A DNA stretch of 64,000 nucleotides from Chryseobacterium indologenes (GTDB taxonomy: Bacteria; Bacteroidota; Bacteroidia; Flavobacteriales; Weeksellaceae), in assembly GCF_018362995.1 (NCBI RefSeq), contig NZ_CP074372.1:4588001-4652000 (forward strand), read 5' to 3'. Of the stretch, positions 6,981 through 59,234 are shown in pieces; the stretch's first letter is position 1; each line of letters begins with the position of its first letter. Both the position numbers and the translations under genes were made by a program. A model generated the notes under the pieces. The model was not told the origin of the DNA. It ran no database searches and was given only the letters and a program-made list of their open reading frames with translations.

Positions 6981-8894
6981 ATGGGGGACATTTTTAAAAT
7001 CAGGGATTTAAGGTATATACCCAGATGGTCGGTATTTTTTATCGACATTTCAGTTATTTTCTTTTCTGTATTAGTCACATATTTGTTATTAAAAAGTCTG
7101 GGGGTAAAACTTAATTTTATTGAATATCAAAATGAAAAAATATTTTCAGTACTTATTGTTAATATTCTGTTTATACTCCTGTTCAAAACATATGCGGGAA
7201 TTATAAGGCACTCTACTTTTTTTGATTTTTGTAAAATTTTGTGGTCTTCGGGTAGTGCTCTTATTACATTGCTGGGAATGAATTTTATATCTGGACTGGC
7301 ATTAGGTAAACCTCTCTTTTTATATCCGGTTCTGTTTTTATTTTTCTTGATTTCTATTTTTCTGATGTTCTTTTTCAGAATGATAACCAAGCAGTTTTTT
7401 TCTGTATTTATGAATCCTAAGGATGTTTCGTCCAAGGAAAGGGTTGCTGTTGTAGGGATAGGGGGTGCTTCTGTTTCATTAGCCAATGCTATTATTCATA
7501 ATCCCGATCATCCATACCAGCTGGCAGGATTTCTTAGTGCAAGATCAGATTCTAAGAAAGCAATGCTGCTAGGTCATAAGATCTATAATAAACAACAGTT
7601 TCTTAAAAGCAATAATCTTAGAGAACAGTTTGATGCGGTTTTGATTAAAGATATGATGACAAAGCGGGAAATGGAAGAATGGACGGCTCTCGCATTGGAT
7701 AATGGATTGAAAGTATTGAAAGCACCTGTAGCCAGTATAATAAAGGAAGATGATGTTGTAAGAGGTATTCGCCCGCTTAAGATTGAAGATTTACTCAATC
7801 GTCCGGCCATTAAAATAGAAGGGGAAGAGGTAAGGAGTTTCCATGTTAATAAAACTATTTTAGTAACCGGAGGTGCCGGGTCTATAGGAAGTGAAATAGT
7901 AAGACAGGTTGCACAATTGAATTCATCGCTTATTGTGGTAGTTGATCAGGCAGAATCTCCTTTATATGAATTGCAGCTTGAGTTAGTGGAGAAATTCCCG
8001 AACCAAAAATTCAAATTTGTACTGGCGGATATTTCAAATTATTCCAGAATCGAAAAACTTTTTGATAACTATCAGTTTTCAATAGTTTATCATGCTGCGG
8101 CATACAAACACGTACCTTTAATAGAAGATAATCCTCATGAAGCTATTTTTGTGAACATTGGAGGAACTAAGAATTTAGCTCTTTTATCAAAAAAATATAA
8201 CGTTAAGCGTTTTGTGATGGTCTCTACCGATAAAGCTGTAAACCCAACCAACGTAATGGGAGCTTCCAAAAGAGCTGCTGAACTCTTTGTACAGTCCTTA
8301 CAAAATTCTCCGGAGAACACAACAAAATTTATTACTACACGTTTTGGAAATGTACTAGGTTCAAATGGTTCTGTAATACCACATTTCAAAAAACAAATTG
8401 AAAAAGGAGGTCCGGTTACAATTACTCATCCTGATATTATTCGTTATTTTATGACTATTCCGGAAGCCTGCGAACTGGTACTTCAGGCAGGAACAATGGG
8501 ACAAGGCGGTGAGATTTATGTTTTTGATATGGGCAAACCGGTTAAAATCCTGGATCTGGCAGAAAGAATGATCAAATTATCAGGGTATACACCGGGTGTT
8601 GATATTAAAATTGATTTTATAGGCTTACGACCTGGTGAAAAGTTGTATGAAGAGCTTTTAACTGATCACTCCACAACTATTCCTACTCATCATGAGAAAA
8701 TTATGATATCCAGAGACCCTTTGATGGAGTTTGAAGATATAGATACTTTGTGTCAACAGATTATTATGTCAGCAATGAATAAGGATAATTTACAGATCGT
8801 GAAAATATTAAAAATCATTGTACCGGAATTTATAAGCAATAATTCGGAATTTGAAGTTTTGGATAAAATATCTGAGCATGAAGTATATAAGTAA
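6981..8894 (+). CDS. Membrane-bound nucleotide-sugar 4,6-dehydratase (PglF/WbpM/CapD family)
   Basis: 637 residues. Four hydrophobic segments fill the first ~140 residues, then a CoA-binding-like Rossmann domain (about 145-270), then the catalytic SDR domain beginning with TGGAGSIGSE near 297 and the STDKAVNPTNVMGASKR motif near 415-431. Family members dehydrate UDP-GlcNAc at C4/C6 to the 4-keto-6-deoxy sugar. First gene of the polysaccharide locus. No matching aminotransferase or second epimerase is found nearby, so the final sugar (for example QuiNAc or FucNAc) cannot be named. The ATG at 6981 gives a charged N-terminus before the first membrane segment. Confidence 0.9.
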   Translation: MGDIFKIRDLRYIPRWSVFFIDISVIFFSVLVTYLLLKSLGVKLNFIEYQNEKIFSVLIVNILFILLFKTYAGIIRHSTFFDFCKILWSSGSALITLLGMNFISGLALGKPLFLYPVLFLFFLISIFLMFFFRMITKQFFSVFMNPKDVSSKERVAVVGIGGASVSLANAIIHNPDHPYQLAGFLSARSDSKKAMLLGHKIYNKQQFLKSNNLREQFDAVLIKDMMTKREMEEWTALALDNGLKVLKAPVASIIKEDDVVRGIRPLKIEDLLNRPAIKIEGEEVRSFHVNKTILVTGGAGSIGSEIVRQVAQLNSSLIVVVDQAESPLYELQLELVEKFPNQKFKFVLADISNYSRIEKLFDNYQFSIVYHAAAYKHVPLIEDNPHEAIFVNIGGTKNLALLSKKYNVKRFVMVSTDKAVNPTNVMGASKRAAELFVQSLQNSPENTTKFITTRFGNVLGSNGSVIPHFKKQIEKGGPVTITHPDIIRYFMTIPEACELVLQAGTMGQGGEIYVFDMGKPVKILDLAERMIKLSGYTPGVDIKIDFIGLRPGEKLYEELLTDHSTTIPTHHEKIMISRDPLMEFEDIDTLCQQIIMSAMNKDNLQIVKILKIIVPEFISNNSEFEVLDKISEHEVYK

Positions 8895-53159: not shown

Positions 53160-54350
53160 CTACAAACTATACCCATTCTTTTTGGCCAGTTCAACAATAG
53201 AACTCTCAATTGCTTTTCCCAGATCATCAGAATCATCAGTACCCCGCTTCTTCATTTCTCCGTCAATATAGCTCTGGCGTTTTTTGGAAAGCTCTTCAAT
53301 TTCCTTCTGAATTTTATCACGGGCGGCAGACTTTGCCGTGATCGTTTTTTGAATTTCTTCCTTGCTTTTTCCTTTCAGCTCGGCAGGAAGTTCACTTTCT
53401 TTTACATTGGCAATAAATCCGGCATCCTTTTCAGCTTTATCTACCAGATCCCAGTGGTCATTTTTGTAAGCGTTCTTTTTAGATTTGGCAACAGCTCTTT
53501 CCACTAAGTTAGATGCTGACTGTGATTCAGCATTTTTATCCTGCGTGATCTGCTTTAGTCTGTATTCCGAACCATGGTTTCCATAGTAGATATAAGTATC
53601 ATTCAGCTTTGAATTACATTCGGAAATTTTGCTGTCGTAAGGCGTTTCAATATAGATTACTTTTCTGTCACTGTCGATATTGAAATATTTTCCGCCTCCC
53701 AAAGACGCTCCGTTTTGCCAGAACGTCTGAATTCCTTCTTCCCGGCTTCCACAGAAAATAGTATTGGTATAAATATTTTTATCCTTTGCTTTTGAAACAA
53801 CGTCCTTATAATTTATTTTTCCCTGATTGAAAGCTTCATTTCCTGCAATATAAATCAATTTCATACTTTTATCATTGCTGTCCCAGTTCAGGTTGGCAGA
53901 AGCATCACGAATAACAGCACCGCAATATTCACTGCCGCCATTGGTTCTCAAAGCGAATAATTTTTCTGAAATAAGATCAAGATCCTGAGTGAGAGGGGCA
54001 ACCTGGCGGATGTAATTTTCATCACGGATTCCATCATTTCCATATTCATAGAGGGCAATTTCAATTTGCGGGGCTTTTCCGTTGTACTTTAGAGTGGTCA
54101 ACGTATTCACAATATTCCACAGCCTGGATTTTGCCTGATCAATCAATCCGTCCATACTATTGGAAGTATCCAGTAAAAGAGCGACCTGAATTTTATTGTC
54201 CTTTATGGTCGAGTTCGCCGGAATCAATGTTACTTTTTGTACCGGTAAATGGCTTTCAACATTACTTTTTGTAGAGCGGTTTTCCGGAAAATTACCGGAG
54301 CTTAAAAAAGCTGTTCCCGCTGCAAGTGCTAAGATTTTTAGAGTTGTCAT
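53160..54350 (-). CDS. Exported von Willebrand factor A domain protein
   Basis: 396 residues with a hydrophobic N-terminus (about 1-20) likely to be a signal peptide. The vWA domain (about 53-260) has the MIDAS motif DTSNS (Asp61-Ser65) and NGGSEYCGAVIRDA, a probable metal site. The C-terminal part (about 290-396) is a charged helical region. Role unknown; such proteins mediate metal-dependent protein contacts in the periplasm. Operator A (54457-54487) and a -7 box TAATTTTA lie upstream, as for the SIMPL genes. Confidence 0.87.
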   Translation of the reverse strand: MTTLKILALAAGTAFLSSGNFPENRSTKSNVESHLPVQKVTLIPANSTIKDNKIQVALLLDTSNSMDGLIDQAKSRLWNIVNTLTTLKYNGKAPQIEIALYEYGNDGIRDENYIRQVAPLTQDLDLISEKLFALRTNGGSEYCGAVIRDASANLNWDSNDKSMKLIYIAGNEAFNQGKINYKDVVSKAKDKNIYTNTIFCGSREEGIQTFWQNGASLGGGKYFNIDSDRKVIYIETPYDSKISECNSKLNDTYIYYGNHGSEYRLKQITQDKNAESQSASNLVERAVAKSKKNAYKNDHWDLVDKAEKDAGFIANVKESELPAELKGKSKEEIQKTITAKSAARDKIQKEIEELSKKRQSYIDGEMKKRGTDDSDDLGKAIESSIVELAKKNGYSL

Positions 54351-54421: not shown

Positions 54422-54429
54422 TAAAATTA
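54422..54429 (-). promoter_or_regulatory. -7-like box of the vWA gene
   Basis: TAATTTTA on the minus strand (one mismatch to TAnnTTTG), 27 bases from operator A. The same box at the same distance occurs before the SIMPL gene at 55393. Confidence 0.55.
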
Positions 54430-54456: not shown

Positions 54457-54487
54457 ACTTGGTGAACTGAAGGTTTCACTTGGTAGA
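54457..54487. promoter_or_regulatory. Predicted regulator-binding site, operator A
   Basis: Direct repeats ACTTGGTGAA (54457) and ACTTGGTAGA (54478), 21 bases apart start to start, with an inner partial dyad GTGAA...TTCAC. It is upstream of the vWA gene and matches operators B and C. Confidence 0.75.
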
Positions 54488-54712: not shown

Positions 54713-55393
54713 TTAAAGTATTTCGTATCTTGTTTTGATGCTGTATTTCAGCTTGATGTTTTCAATATTATCGAAAGAATAATCTACCGGAGCATCAGCC
54801 ATTTCCAGCTGGATATTGCTTGCTCTTCCTTTATAAGCTGCGGGCATGATCATATCGCTGGTGTAGTCTTCTATTTCTACAATTTCAAGAGCATTTCCTG
54901 TCTTTTTACCCATGCTTTCCAATAAATAATCTGCTTTTTCTTTAGCGGCTTTTAAAGCGTTGATCTTAACTGCTTTTCTAAAATCTGCAATTTTGGTATT
55001 CTTTACCTCTGCGATGTTCAGGCTGCTTACCCATTTTTGGTTCAGGTCTTCAAAAATTTTACTCAGACTTGATTTTGTGCTGGCTTTAAACTGATAGCTT
55101 TTAGTAAACTTTGCTGTTTTAGAGTAAATATTCTGATACATTGATTTGAACTTAATGTCTTCGTTCTTTACGCCTGCGTTCTTTAAAGTTTCAAATAACT
55201 TCTTCTCATTATCTGCCAGATCATTTTTGTTGTCTGCTTTTATTCCGATGCTGAAGATGATTTCATCCGGTTCTACTTCCATTTCCGCAACACCTGTTAC
55301 TTCAATTGCATTTTTCTTTACTTCTTGTGTCTGTGCATTTATAAAGCTTCCAAGAGTTAAAATTCCGATTAATAAAAAATGTTTCAATTTCAT
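54713..55393 (-). CDS. SIMPL domain protein (DUF541)
   Basis: 226 residues. Signal peptide ends GSFINAQ (about 21). The SIMPL (DUF541) fold is visible: IEVTGVAEMEVEPDEIIFSIGI, then helices and LNALKAAKEKADYLLE-type segment, closing with the YSIKTRYEI strand. Periplasmic. Family members form oligomeric assemblies and are tied to envelope stress (for example the OMP26/BP26 type), but no activity is certain. Operator B lies 69 bases upstream of its start, right after the stop of the other SIMPL gene. Confidence 0.88.
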   Translation of the reverse strand: MKLKHFLLIGILTLGSFINAQTQEVKKNAIEVTGVAEMEVEPDEIIFSIGIKADNKNDLADNEKKLFETLKNAGVKNEDIKFKSMYQNIYSKTAKFTKSYQFKASTKSSLSKIFEDLNQKWVSSLNIAEVKNTKIADFRKAVKINALKAAKEKADYLLESMGKKTGNALEIVEIEDYTSDMIMPAAYKGRASNIQLEMADAPVDYSFDNIENIKLKYSIKTRYEIL

Positions 55394-55426: not shown

Positions 55427-55434
55427 TAAAATTA
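55427..55434 (-). promoter_or_regulatory. -7-like box of the SIMPL gene at 55393
   Basis: TAATTTTA on the minus strand, 27 bases from operator B, the same spacing as at the vWA gene. Confidence 0.55.
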
Positions 55435-55461: not shown

Positions 55462-55492
55462 ACTTGGTGAAACGGAGCTTTCACTTGGTGAG
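55462..55492. promoter_or_regulatory. Predicted regulator-binding site, operator B
   Basis: ACTTGGTGAA (55462) and ACTTGGTGAG (55483), a 21-base period; the inner bases also form a perfect dyad GTGAAA-N6-TTTCAC (55467-55484). Best-conserved of the three copies. Confidence 0.8.
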
Positions 55493-55505: not shown

Positions 55506-56423
55506 TTAGTTTCCTTTATTCTTTTTCAGATCATATTTTACGTTGAGGTTCATGATATATTGTATACCCACTTCCGGATCAGCATTATTGATTACTTTAT
55601 CAAAGCCGGTATAATCTGTCCCATCATAATAAAAGGTTTTAGATTTTCTTTCTTCCTTTCTGACATATTTGGAATCATATCCATACGTAACATTGGCACT
55701 TTCAAAAGCTGTATAATTCTGATATTGGCTTTTTGGAAAAACATAAGTAAAGCCTGAAGAAGCGGTGGGATTTCCAATAATTTCCTTTTTAAACAGTTTA
55801 AAATAATTTTCCTTTTTTTTGTCGAAAACCGAATAAGCCTCTTTGAGAAGTTCTTCCTGGATTTTATCAATATCACTATTGATATAATCTACCTTAATAA
55901 CATCATAGATCTGGAAGTCTGAAGCTTCAGAGATCAGTTTTTCAATCATTGAGTGTTTGTTTACCGTAATAATGATGTTTTTCTTGGTTTCAAATCCATC
56001 CATTTTCTGGATGGCAGTCTGTGAATCTTTATTAACGTTGTAGTCATAGATTTTGGTCTGAGAGATAAAGTCTACAAAGATATCATTGTCTTTGATGCCC
56101 ATTGAGGATATTCTTTTCATAAAACCGCTGATTCTCCTGTTGATATTTTCAATGGCAATTTTTGGAGTGGCTGCTTCTTCATTCAAACCCAGTGTAAGTT
56201 TATATTGGTCTGCCGTTTTGTTCATCAATACTTTTACGGTGATAATTAAGGTTGAATCGGTAGCAAAATAGGTATTGGTGTTGATGAATTCAGGTAAATT
56301 TCTGGGAGTGGAATAATCGTTGTTATTTCTGTCTCTGTAGATTTGGTTTCCTCCGACCTGTGCTTTTGAAAGACTTAAAAAAGATACCATAATGAGTAAA
56401 AAAGTAAGAGTTAGTTTTTTCAT
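55506..56423 (-). CDS. Second SIMPL-like exported protein
   Basis: 305 residues from the ATG at 56423; the frame extends to 56471 but the 16 extra residues precede a clean signal peptide (LTLTFLLIMVSFLSLSKAQ). A SIMPL-like core (DSTLIITVKVLMNKTADQYKLTLGL, INRRISGFMKRISSMG) is more divergent than in the neighbour and the protein is longer. Divergent from the LytS-like kinase gene with operator C between them. Perfect -7 box TAAGTTTG (minus strand, 56451-56458). Confidence 0.78.
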   Translation of the reverse strand: MKKLTLTFLLIMVSFLSLSKAQVGGNQIYRDRNNNDYSTPRNLPEFINTNTYFATDSTLIITVKVLMNKTADQYKLTLGLNEEAATPKIAIENINRRISGFMKRISSMGIKDNDIFVDFISQTKIYDYNVNKDSQTAIQKMDGFETKKNIIITVNKHSMIEKLISEASDFQIYDVIKVDYINSDIDKIQEELLKEAYSVFDKKKENYFKLFKKEIIGNPTASSGFTYVFPKSQYQNYTAFESANVTYGYDSKYVRKEERKSKTFYYDGTDYTGFDKVINNADPEVGIQYIMNLNVKYDLKKNKGN

Positions 56424-56450
56424 GATTTTTAAATTTGAATTATTTTGCTC

Positions 56451-56458
56451 CAAACTTA
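56451..56458 (-). promoter_or_regulatory. -7 box of the second SIMPL gene
   Basis: TAAGTTTG on the minus strand, a full match to TAnnTTTG, with 28 bases between it and operator C. Confidence 0.6.
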
Positions 56459-56486
56459 GCCTTACACTCACATTATCAAAGACTAA

Positions 56487-56517
56487 ACTTGGTGAAAGGG
56501 GATTTTCGCTTGGTGAA
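56487..56517. promoter_or_regulatory. Predicted bidirectional regulator-binding site, operator C
   Basis: ACTTGGTGAA (56487) and GCTTGGTGAA (56508), 21-base period, dyad GTGAAA-N6-TTTCGC. It lies 28 bases from the -7 box on each side: TAAGTTTG for the SIMPL gene and TATCTTTG for the kinase gene. Confidence 0.8.
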
Positions 56518-56522
56518 TAGTT

Positions 56523-56553
56523 TTTGAATACACTATATATATGTATATCTTTG
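56523..56553 (+). promoter_or_regulatory. Promoter of the LytS-like kinase gene
   Basis: TTTG (56523-56526), 19 bases, TATCTTTG (56546-56553). Ideal Bacteroidota promoter whose -33 box is 5 bases from operator C. The ATG follows only 4 bases after the -7 box, so the transcript may lack a leader. Confidence 0.75.
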
Positions 56554-56557
56554 TTTT

Positions 56558-58351
56558 ATGAAAATGTTTACACTTCTTTCAATCTTTTTACTGATGTTTT
56601 GGGGAAACACAATGTCTTCCCAAACCACTAATACTACCGCTGCTGCGGTGGAAGATGTACAGGTGGAGACAAAGAAGCTGAAAAAAGCAATGGATACGAA
56701 AAATGAACCTGCCCAGGCAGATTCTTATTATAATATTGGTGAAACCTTTTTTAACAGCGGGAACTTTCCGAAGAGTGAAGAGTATTACACCAAAGCCAAA
56801 AATCTGTATGAAAAACTTAATGACAAGCCTAATATTGAAAAAGCAACCCGCAGATTAGCCCAGTCACAGGAAAAGCAGAATAAAATAACGCCTGCGATCA
56901 GTAACTATGGCAGAGCGGCACAAATGAGTTACAGTGAAAAAAGTAAGGCAGTTAATTCTAATGACGTTACAAGGCTTTCTTCGGCTACACCAGAGCTTAA
57001 GGCAGAAGCTATCCAGAGTAATATTAACTTAAGTAAAAAAGAAAACGAACAGGGTGATCTTGCAGAAAGCTACAGTCAGCTGGCTGATGTAAATCTCAAA
57101 CAGAAAGATGTTTCCAGTGCCGAAGAAAACCTGAATACAGCCTATAAAATTTCTAAAAGAGAAGCTCCGCAGCAAGCTTTGGCCATCAATCAGAAGCTTG
57201 CAGATCTTTACGTTGAAAACAAAAACTTTGAAAAAGCTATTGAAGCTAAAAAGAAAGTTTTGAAGGAAGATTTTGTAAAAGAAAACTCACAGGAAAAGGT
57301 CAATCAAATACAAGAACTGGCGGATATTTATATTAAAAAGAATGATCCGAAAGAAGCGGTAGACCTGTTGAAAAATGCCTATGGAATTGCCTTGGATAAA
57401 GGTCATACGCTGGAAGCTCAAAGAAGCGTAAAAAAACTGGACAGCCTGTATGCCATTTCAGGAAATATTGATGCTTCCGTTCAATTGTACAGAGATTTTC
57501 TGGGGAAACTTCCCAATCTTGTTTCCAAGGATAGAAGTCTCGTAGACAATAAAATCCTGGAAGATACCGAACAACGAATTTCACAGCTGGAAAAAGAAAG
57601 AGAATTGAAAGATGAGCTTATCCGCAAGAAAAATGTATTCAACTATAGTTTGATCGGAGCTTTGGTTCTGCTTACCGGATTAATTGTTTTTATTTTCAGA
57701 ACCCTGAAAAAGGTTCAGACAAAGAATAAAAAAATTGCTCTTCAGTCTTTGCGCAGAGAGATGAACCCGCATTTTATTTTTAACAGCCTGAATAGTGTTA
57801 ATCATTTTATTGCGACCAATAATGAGCTGGAAGCCAATCAGTATCTGACAAAATTCTCCAAGCTGATGCGTGGCGTGATGGAAAATTCTACTGAAGATTT
57901 TATTCCTTTCCAGCAGGAGCTTGATCTTCTCCAAAATTATCTTGCCCTTGAAAAAACACGTTTTGCTGATAAATTTGATTACGAAATCGATGTAGATGAA
58001 AGTCTGAATATGCAAAACCTGCAGATCCCGGGAATGCTCATACAGCCGTTTCTGGAAAATGCAATATGGCACGGACTCCGCTACAGAACAGAAAAAGGAT
58101 TTTTAAAACTGAACTTTGAGAAAAGTGAATCCTACCTTAAAATCCTTATTGAAGACAACGGAATAGGCATCGAAGAAAGCAAAAAGCAGAAAACCCAGCA
58201 TCAGAAAACAAGAGAGGGCAGAGGAATGAAAAATACTTTGGAAAGAATTCAGCTGCTCAACGATTTGTATAAAAAAGATATTACCTGCTCTGTACAGGAT
58301 AAAGAAAATAATACCGGAGTTTTGGTAACGCTCCAGATCAATTTGATCTGA
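56558..58351 (+). CDS. LytS-like sensor histidine kinase with TPR sensor domain
   Basis: 597 residues. Signal or membrane anchor 1-20, a periplasmic series of TPR-like helices (about 30-330; NIGETFFNSGNFPKSEEYYT and similar units), a coiled coil, one membrane helix (about 366-385) and a His_kinase domain with the phospho-acceptor His405 in REMNPHFIFNSLNS, then a HATPase with FLENAIWHGLRY and EDNGIGIEES. This is the LytS/YehU type that pairs with LytTR regulators; the cognate regulator is the next gene (148 bases downstream). Operator C and a perfect promoter lie just upstream. Confidence 0.92.
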   Translation: MKMFTLLSIFLLMFWGNTMSSQTTNTTAAAVEDVQVETKKLKKAMDTKNEPAQADSYYNIGETFFNSGNFPKSEEYYTKAKNLYEKLNDKPNIEKATRRLAQSQEKQNKITPAISNYGRAAQMSYSEKSKAVNSNDVTRLSSATPELKAEAIQSNINLSKKENEQGDLAESYSQLADVNLKQKDVSSAEENLNTAYKISKREAPQQALAINQKLADLYVENKNFEKAIEAKKKVLKEDFVKENSQEKVNQIQELADIYIKKNDPKEAVDLLKNAYGIALDKGHTLEAQRSVKKLDSLYAISGNIDASVQLYRDFLGKLPNLVSKDRSLVDNKILEDTEQRISQLEKERELKDELIRKKNVFNYSLIGALVLLTGLIVFIFRTLKKVQTKNKKIALQSLRREMNPHFIFNSLNSVNHFIATNNELEANQYLTKFSKLMRGVMENSTEDFIPFQQELDLLQNYLALEKTRFADKFDYEIDVDESLNMQNLQIPGMLIQPFLENAIWHGLRYRTEKGFLKLNFEKSESYLKILIEDNGIGIEESKKQKTQHQKTREGRGMKNTLERIQLLNDLYKKDITCSVQDKENNTGVLVTLQINLI

Positions 58352-58499: not shown

Positions 58500-59234
58500 A
58501 TGAAAATAAAAGCCGTAATTGTAGACGATGAACTCATCGCAAGAGAAGTTTTACGAAGCTATCTTACCAAATACTGTCCACAGGTGGAAATTCTTGGCGA
58601 GGCTGAAAATATTAAAGAAGCAGTGCCGTTGATTGCTGAAAAGCAACCTCAGCTGGTATTCCTGGATGTAGAAATGCCCTTCGGAAATGCCTTTGACGTA
58701 TTGGAAGCTACCAAAGCGTTTTCCTATGAAACGATTTTCATTACTGCGTTTTCACAATATTCATTACAGGCGTTAAATAAATCGGCAAGTTATTATATTT
58801 TAAAACCTATTGACATTCAGGAGCTGATTCTTGCGGTGAATAAAGTAGTAGAAAGTCTTGAGAAAAAAGAAGAACTCAACCGGAATAAGATACTGCTTGA
58901 AAACCTGAAGCTAAAACCTGAAAAACAGCAGCTGATTCTTCCTACCCTGCAGGGATTTGATGTCGTAAAGACTGAAGATATTGTGAGACTTCAGGCTGAT
59001 GGAAATTTTACGCAGGTTTACCTTACAGATGGTTCAAAAAAGATGGTATGCCGCTTTTTGAAACATTTCGATGATCTGCTGGAAAGCCCGTTTGTGAGAG
59101 TTCACCGTTCCCATATCATCAATACAGGATTTGTGAAATCTTACCATAAAAGCGGAACCGTAATGTTGTCTGATGATACGGAAATTGAAGTTTCAGGAAG
59201 CTTTAAAGATAATTTCCTGAAAGTCTTTTCATAG
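58500..59234 (+). CDS. LytTR-type response regulator
   Basis: 244 residues. Receiver domain (1-120) with VDDE, phospho-acceptor Asp56 in LVFLDVEMP and conserved Lys in YILKPID; C-terminal LytTR DNA-binding domain (about 140-244; IVRLQADGNFTQVYLTDGSKK, FVRVHRSHIIN). Such regulators bind direct repeats spaced by about two helical turns, which fits the three operators found nearby. Same strand as the kinase. Confidence 0.94.
   Translation: MKIKAVIVDDELIAREVLRSYLTKYCPQVEILGEAENIKEAVPLIAEKQPQLVFLDVEMPFGNAFDVLEATKAFSYETIFITAFSQYSLQALNKSASYYILKPIDIQELILAVNKVVESLEKKEELNRNKILLENLKLKPEKQQLILPTLQGFDVVKTEDIVRLQADGNFTQVYLTDGSKKMVCRFLKHFDDLLESPFVRVHRSHIINTGFVKSYHKSGTVMLSDDTEIEVSGSFKDNFLKVFS

Follow-up and report, generated by a model that had tools for sequence, protein, structure and literature searches.

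A predicted LytTR operator at mirrored distances from two divergent promoters in Chryseobacterium indologenes

Described LytTR systems and the locus in Chryseobacterium indologenes

Published LytTR sites consist of two repeats of 9–11 nt placed 11–13 nt apart, and share no common word (PMC4847170); PMC6193735 places such sites 4–11 bp upstream of the -35 element, with autoactivation. In the YpdAB-type system, a GGCATTTCAT direct repeat precedes yhjX (PMC4847170), and, as in the locus described here, it is a 10-base repeat with 11 bases between and a period of 21. A LytTR-type response regulator is combined with a kinase in both cases. However, the word and the targets differ, and in the present locus the operator lies between two promoters and stands in front of the kinase gene as well. 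YpdA has a LytS-type membrane sensor, whereas the sensor part of the kinase studied here is made of TPR repeats. In HdrRM of Streptococcus mutans, one of the LytTR Regulatory Systems (PMC6193735), direct repeats are found just upstream of the -35 element of its own operon, as here; autoregulation was shown there and would be expected here, and that type joins a LytTR regulator to an inhibitory membrane protein, whereas a kinase and a receiver domain occur in the present locus. AgrA of Staphylococcus aureus activates its own operon and a divergent transcript at agr P2/P3 (PMC4227749), as is proposed here, but one site per promoter is used there (P2 and P3, each at about -60), while here one repeat pair is equidistant from both promoters.

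The window analyzed in this study is a stretch of 64,000 nucleotides of C. indologenes (contig NZ_CP074372.1, positions 4,588,001–4,652,000), and coordinates refer to it unless a locus or contig is named. The features were as follows, with gene products assigned by Pfam.

53160–54350, minus strand: VWA-domain protein, proposed target of operator A
54422–54429, minus strand: VWA promoter, -7-like box TAATTTTA at 27 bases from operator A
54457–54487, plus strand: operator A, 2 mismatches, upstream of the VWA gene (minus strand)
54713–55393, minus strand: SIMPL1 (PF04402), proposed target of operator B
55427–55434, minus strand: SIMPL1 promoter, -7-like box TAATTTTA at 27 bases from operator B
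55462–55492, plus strand: operator B, 1 mismatch, upstream of the SIMPL1 gene (minus strand)
55506–56423, minus strand: SIMPL2 (PF04402), proposed target of operator C
56451–56458, minus strand: -7 box TAAGTTTG of the SIMPL2 promoter (plus strand CAAACTTA), 28 bases from operator C
56477–56480, minus strand: -33-like TTTG of the SIMPL2 promoter (plus-strand CAAA), 6 bases from operator C, N18 to the box
56487–56517, plus strand: operator C, ACTTGGTGAA-N11-GCTTGGTGAA, between the divergent SIMPL2 and kinase promoters
56523–56526, plus strand: -33 TTTG of the kinase promoter, 5 bases from operator C, N19 to the -7 box
56546–56553, plus strand: kinase promoter, -7 box TATCTTTG at 28 bases from operator C
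56558–58351, plus strand: sensor kinase with TPR repeats and a His_kinase domain (PF06580)
58500–59234, plus strand: response regulator with receiver (PF00072) and LytTR (PF04397, over cut-off) domains, proposed operator binder

Direct reading of the window confirmed the two 10-base words with a period of 21 described in the original prediction, ACTTGGTGAA at 56487–56496 and GCTTGGTGAA at 56508–56517, and the kinase TTTG was found where it had been placed, with 5 bases to the operator and N19 to the -7 box. The predicted gap of 28 bases between operator and box held on both sides of operator C, but not at operators A and B, where TAATTTTA stands at 27 bases. The kinase promoter TTTG-N19-TATCTTTG has the Bacteroidetes sigma-A form, in which a TAnnTTTG -7 box is combined with TTTG at -33 (PMC6847099). 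Judged from its letters, operator C is in its build a LytTR-type operator, with 10-mers separated by 11 bases, edges 5 and 6 bases from the TTTG elements of the window, and a co-occurring regulator whose PF04397 match at 58500–59234 exceeds the cut-off. Compared by eye, ACTTGGTGAA fits the general LytTR word consensus poorly. This was not treated as defining, since LytTR sites share no common word according to PMC4847170; the likeness to LytTR repeats two helical turns apart, proposed beforehand, agrees with the published length, spacing and place (PMC4847170, PMC6193735).

The HATPase match of the sensor kinase was under its Pfam cut-off, and its N-terminal part appeared by eye to consist of a signal peptide and one membrane segment. 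The N-termini of both SIMPL proteins and the VWA protein also resembled signal peptides by eye; for SIMPL2, the list of open reading frames permits an upstream GTG start at 56471. The kinase and regulator genes do not always stand side by side, which counts against the proposed pairing; they were separated by no more than 300 bases in 36 of 71 loci (one of the 71, L184, is a paralog) and by up to 2.3 kb in the others. A PF06580 kinase close to a receiver-LytTR regulator is the arrangement of LytS/YpdA-like systems; no LytS-type membrane sensor domain was present among the 16 Pfam hits, and TPR repeats precede the kinase domain. For this reason the pair, which would work like YpdAB, was kept outside that subfamily. 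The NCBIfam model that matched the regulator best was BtsR, of the BtsS/BtsR system of Escherichia coli (E 6e-29), but the regulator scored 101 bits against a cut-off of 246, so it was not filed as BtsR. In two other genomes the regulator ortholog (G272, C1:2877366–2878097; G062, C1:1014816–1015546) carried an internal stop in one case and was split into two overlapping matches in the other.

In the window the regulator is followed by a lipocalin-like gene (PF08212, 59307–59849), and 60 of 71 loci have this gene within 1.5 kb downstream of the regulator; the loci scanned showed no operator between the two genes. Of the other 14 LytTR loci of the same genome, two (L290:2447–2484 and L285:4723–4753) contain non-coding period-21 repeats with TAnnTTTG nearby, and a control scan gave none. 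These repeats are possible, weak candidates for operators of the regulators concerned.

Rarity and fixed spacing of the operator

The spaced pattern occurred three times in the window at up to 3 mismatches, against 0.03 expected from shuffles. The lone 9-mer half-site (up to 1 mismatch) was not enriched in the window, with 22 occurrences against 18.1 expected, and the spaced pair was therefore taken as the signal. Across the 5.0 Mb genome, only operators A, B and C had 2 mismatches or fewer, the farthest lying about 4 kb upstream of the regulator gene; random placement in the genome, which had been named as grounds for abandoning the prediction, was not observed. Eight further sites had exactly 3 mismatches, and by eye none of them carried the TTT[C/G] flank of the operators. 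The backward control pattern gave no site at 2 mismatches in this genome and two at up to 3.

The geometry was evaluated in 73 loci (983,009 bases), namely 60 of the 110 genus loci, chosen by the analysts across the identity range and related by descent, 12 others and the window. Half-site pairs had a period of 21 in 163 cases and of 20 or 22 in none, and an inverted arrangement of half-sites was seen in one pair in the 983,009 bases. Away from locus ends, 177 operators with up to 2 mismatches were scored, 176 of them distinct. With box types that were defined after the alignment had been seen, a -7-like box was located 27–29 bases away on at least one side of all 176 distinct operators and on both sides of 31; at any other gap there were at most 6 boxes, and 0.15–0.43 TAnnTTTG or TAnnTTTA boxes were expected per gap position. 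An earlier scan that barred G inside the -7 box missed TAAGTTTG and returned 7 two-sided operators and 7 without a box, whereas the scan allowing TAnnTTTG returned the 31 two-sided operators and none without a box. The 140 boxes on the left side comprised TAnnTTTA at 27 bases (106), TAnnTTTG at 28 bases (28) and six others. On the right (kinase) side, TAnnTTTG was found at 27 bases in 23 and at 28 bases in 21 promoters, and a TACTTTGC-type box at 29 bases in 23. The TTT before the second half-site, which was outside the search pattern, was 94–99% conserved. The sites could be located upstream of orthologous genes in relatives, as conservation of the predicted operator would require.

The kinase promoters of the 23 operators with the TACTTTGC-type box (L094, L099, L101–L107, L109–L114 and others) differ from that of the window, and their boxes fit the alternative TAnnTTGY box (SM5) of Flavobacterium psychrophilum (PMC9723704).

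The TTTG-N19 arrangement, to which the original prediction had given weight, fared less well, since the -33 box was often missing at the same operators in relatives. It was present in 27 of the 67 promoters on the right and in 4 of the 140 on the left. Its conservation was incomplete at kinase promoters, and the -33-like TTTG of the SIMPL2 type was missing at most comparable promoters. On the kinase side, TTTG at N18–20 preceded 27 of 44 TAnnTTTG boxes and none of the 23 TACTTTGC boxes. The corresponding values on the left were 4 of 28 (gap 28) and 0 of 5 (gap 27) for TAnnTTTG, and 0 of 106 (gap 27) and 0 of 1 (gap 28) for TAnnTTTA. The -33 TTTG was rejected as an element of the conserved design, as it is missing at most left-side and all TACTTTGC promoters. 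Its frequent absence fits dependence on an activator, and this scarcity suggests, at the level of promoter sequence, activation rather than repression.

A chance origin of the repeats was ruled out by the shuffles, the whole-genome scan and the backward control in relatives described below. Close relatives share sequence by descent, which could also leave a functionless inherited remnant; however, the words persist in front of different genes and in further genera while nearby DNA varies, the geometry is retained even with a changed word, and the window count far exceeds its expectation, so that chance and remnant together are hardly credible.

Co-occurrence with the regulator and target genes

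The genome contains 15 LytTR matches, 14 besides the adjacent regulator, and attribution of the operator to the latter needed more than adjacency for that reason. A first draw of 118 genus genomes was searched with a regulator ortholog cut-off of E 1e-60 and an operator match defined as up to 2 mismatches; a match was found in 112 and an ortholog in 110. A second draw of 236 family genomes added 28 genus genomes, 27 of them with the ortholog. Among the 146 distinct genus genomes of both draws, all 137 with the ortholog had at least one operator match, while 7 of the 9 without it had none (Fisher p 1.5e-10, uncorrected for relatedness). The two exceptions could be explained: G055 has SIMPL1 and a kinase gene that is truncated at a contig end, and the sole match in G098 lies inside an 897-aa open frame and is without the usual flank. 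The backward control pattern matched in 43 of the 118 genus genomes (counted by eye), and a match in a single genome is weak evidence for this reason. Among family genomes that lie outside the genus and lack the regulator, a match was present in 45 of 142 against 40 of 142 for the control (counted by eye). This is no enrichment, and these loose matches were taken as background. In G249, which belongs to another genus, the operator period is imitated by a 21-bp minisatellite built on a CTTGTTGAA unit (C12:222528–222724), and its 2-mismatch matches were rejected as operators.

Seven of the eight first-draw genomes without the regulator, all but G055, were also without the kinase (E 1e-60) and SIMPL1 (E 1e-10), which indicates that the parts of the system occur together or not at all. 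Since it is kept or lost as a unit and the operators mostly share the locus with the regulator, the co-occurrence is partly trivial. The unlinked operators and the changed word of G194 matter because they alone break the linkage of operator and regulator. The SIMPL1-VWA and kinase-regulator pairs are 209 kb apart in G052 and about 2 Mb apart along the contig in G286, and in both genomes a perfect operator precedes SIMPL1. Co-occurrence with the adjacent LytTR regulator, which had been set as a check, held even where the target gene had moved away. Five family genomes outside the genus possess the regulator, and four of them have a match with up to 2 mismatches. One of these operators, in G120, precedes, on another contig, a gene resembling the DUF4139 targets; this genome has the kinase and regulator but no such operator upstream of its kinase, which counts against the proposed regulation.

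G194, of another genus, has a regulator that is 65% identical, and the Chryseobacterium operator word is absent from this genome. Its kinase is preceded by AATGGGTAAA twice with a period of 21 (L182:7560–7590), flanked at 28 bases by a minus-side box, TAGCTTTG, and a plus-side box, TTACTTTA; the latter is one base from the TTACTTTG found before other kinases. A scan for perfect 10-mer repeats with periods of 15–30 in L182 gave two others inside the kinase gene, one at 7825 with a period of 21 and one at 8126 with a period of 24. In this one genome, the operator word is changed while the geometry stayed. The G194 regulator also has a two-residue insertion within its LytTR domain.

With 15 LytTR matches in the genome, another LytTR protein, or an unrelated factor, might bind the sites. 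We consider this quite improbable, because genus genomes without this regulator lack the operator, the two explained exceptions aside, no site with up to 2 mismatches occurs near any other LytTR gene of the genome, and word and regulator have both diverged in G194. The attribution to the adjacent regulator over the 14 others is putative and draws on co-occurrence and neighbourhood.

Genes that read against the repeat within 350 bases of it encode SIMPL1, SIMPL2 and relatives, VWA, DUF4139, amidohydrolase and rhodanese-like proteins. The DUF4139 protein was downstream of 28 operators. The DUF4139 and amidohydrolase domains were each confirmed on one member, and the rhodanese-like target was recognized by eye. 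Using first-ATG gene calls, the start codon was mostly 58–68 bases from the operator edge for SIMPL1 and the DUF4139 gene, 72–194 bases for the VWA gene and 35–113 bases for the amidohydrolase gene. The target proteins inspected appear secreted, and a role of the set in the cell envelope is likely. A literature search for SIMPL together with DUF4139 returned nothing useful.

Repeat polarity, the kinase transcript and the proposed regulation

When the loci were oriented by the regulator, all repeats found read in the direction of the kinase. The kinase runs in the same direction as the repeat and the structural genes run opposite to it, at operator-to-box distances of 27–28 bases (29 for TACTTTGC), and the against-polarity was retained at the remote SIMPL1 genes and the G120 gene. 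If the dimer is bound head-to-tail, RNA polymerase would meet opposite faces of it at the two promoters, because the polarity is reversed. This would be unexpected if a single protein surface touches RNA polymerase, and it counts against activation of both promoters. We know of no description of a single LytTR operator used in opposite polarities. A literature search combining LytTR with 'divergent promoters' yielded, among the matches listed, three papers, all on agr.

The -7 box of Flavobacterium johnsoniae promoters has its G at position -5 (PMC6847099); applied here, this gives a predicted start at 56558, the first base of the kinase start codon, and one at 56446 on the minus strand. The codon four bases past the box was ATG in 41 and GTG in 3 of the 44 kinase-side TAnnTTTG promoters, and the frame opened by it matched the kinase in all 44, the L122 frame ending after 159 residues. 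A conserved leaderless kinase mRNA with the start codon at +1 is predicted from this arrangement (window 56546–56560 and 43 other loci, L087–L189). Leaderless mRNAs make up 5.5% in F. psychrophilum (PMC9723704).

It is highly probable, on the comparative evidence, that the adjacent regulator binds operator C and activates both divergent promoters, with operators A and B under the same control. The LytTR regulator (58500–59234), presumed partner of the TPR sensor kinase and possibly dependent on its phosphorylation in response to a signal, would bind operator C as two molecules on the two 10-base words, which at 21 bp, or two turns, share one face of the helix. Bound at about -71 to -41, the regulators would activate both promoters, many counterparts of which are without a -33 element. 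The leftward output would be the SIMPL2 gene and the rightward output the kinase gene, giving positive feedback. Through operators B and A, SIMPL1 and the VWA protein would be controlled likewise, so that in this genome the system may run a compact local regulon whose products appear secreted.

The reversal of polarity between the two sides could alternatively mean that the regulator, bound at operator C, activates one promoter, likeliest that of the structural gene, and represses or spares the kinase. A single ComE site may lie between comC and nlmC in Streptococcus mutans, which would speak for such split action, though a literature check gave no confirmation. Kinase-side promoters also have TTTG at N18–19 before TAnnTTTG in 27 of 44 cases, and 136 of 140 left promoters are without TTTG at N18–20; a LytTR protein may moreover act as a repressor, as AgrA does at bsaA (PMC4227749). 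However, the operator lies wholly upstream of the -33 region whichever promoter is considered, as is usual for activator sites, its spacing to the kinase -7 box is as strict as that on the other side, and the 23 TACTTTGC kinase promoters without TTTG should need help. We regard this alternative as unlikely, and activation of both promoters is preferred.

The broader proposal is that a single, polar LytTR operator activates a pair of divergent promoters from mirrored positions, as a standing design of the Chryseobacterium regulon in which the distance from the operator would set the first base of a leaderless kinase mRNA. It is advanced tentatively, with slightly more doubt than belief. The direct-repeat LytTR operator is already known, and what is new here is the operator word, its mirrored use and a mapped regulon in this phylum. 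Judged by title or the opening of the abstract, none of the matches listed for LytTR with Bacteroidetes, Flavobacterium or Chryseobacterium described an operator of a LytTR regulator from this phylum, subscription papers being mostly outside the search, and this gap contrasts with the 15 LytTR matches in this genome alone. The operator is mapped well enough for a test with one protein and one fragment, and the conserved target set offers a starting point for studying what SIMPL and DUF4139 proteins do. The mirrored geometry raises the question of how LytTR activators touch RNA polymerase. If the proposal is true, the DNA-bound dimer of a LytTR activator would work facing either way, for example through DNA bending or two-fold symmetric receiver domains.
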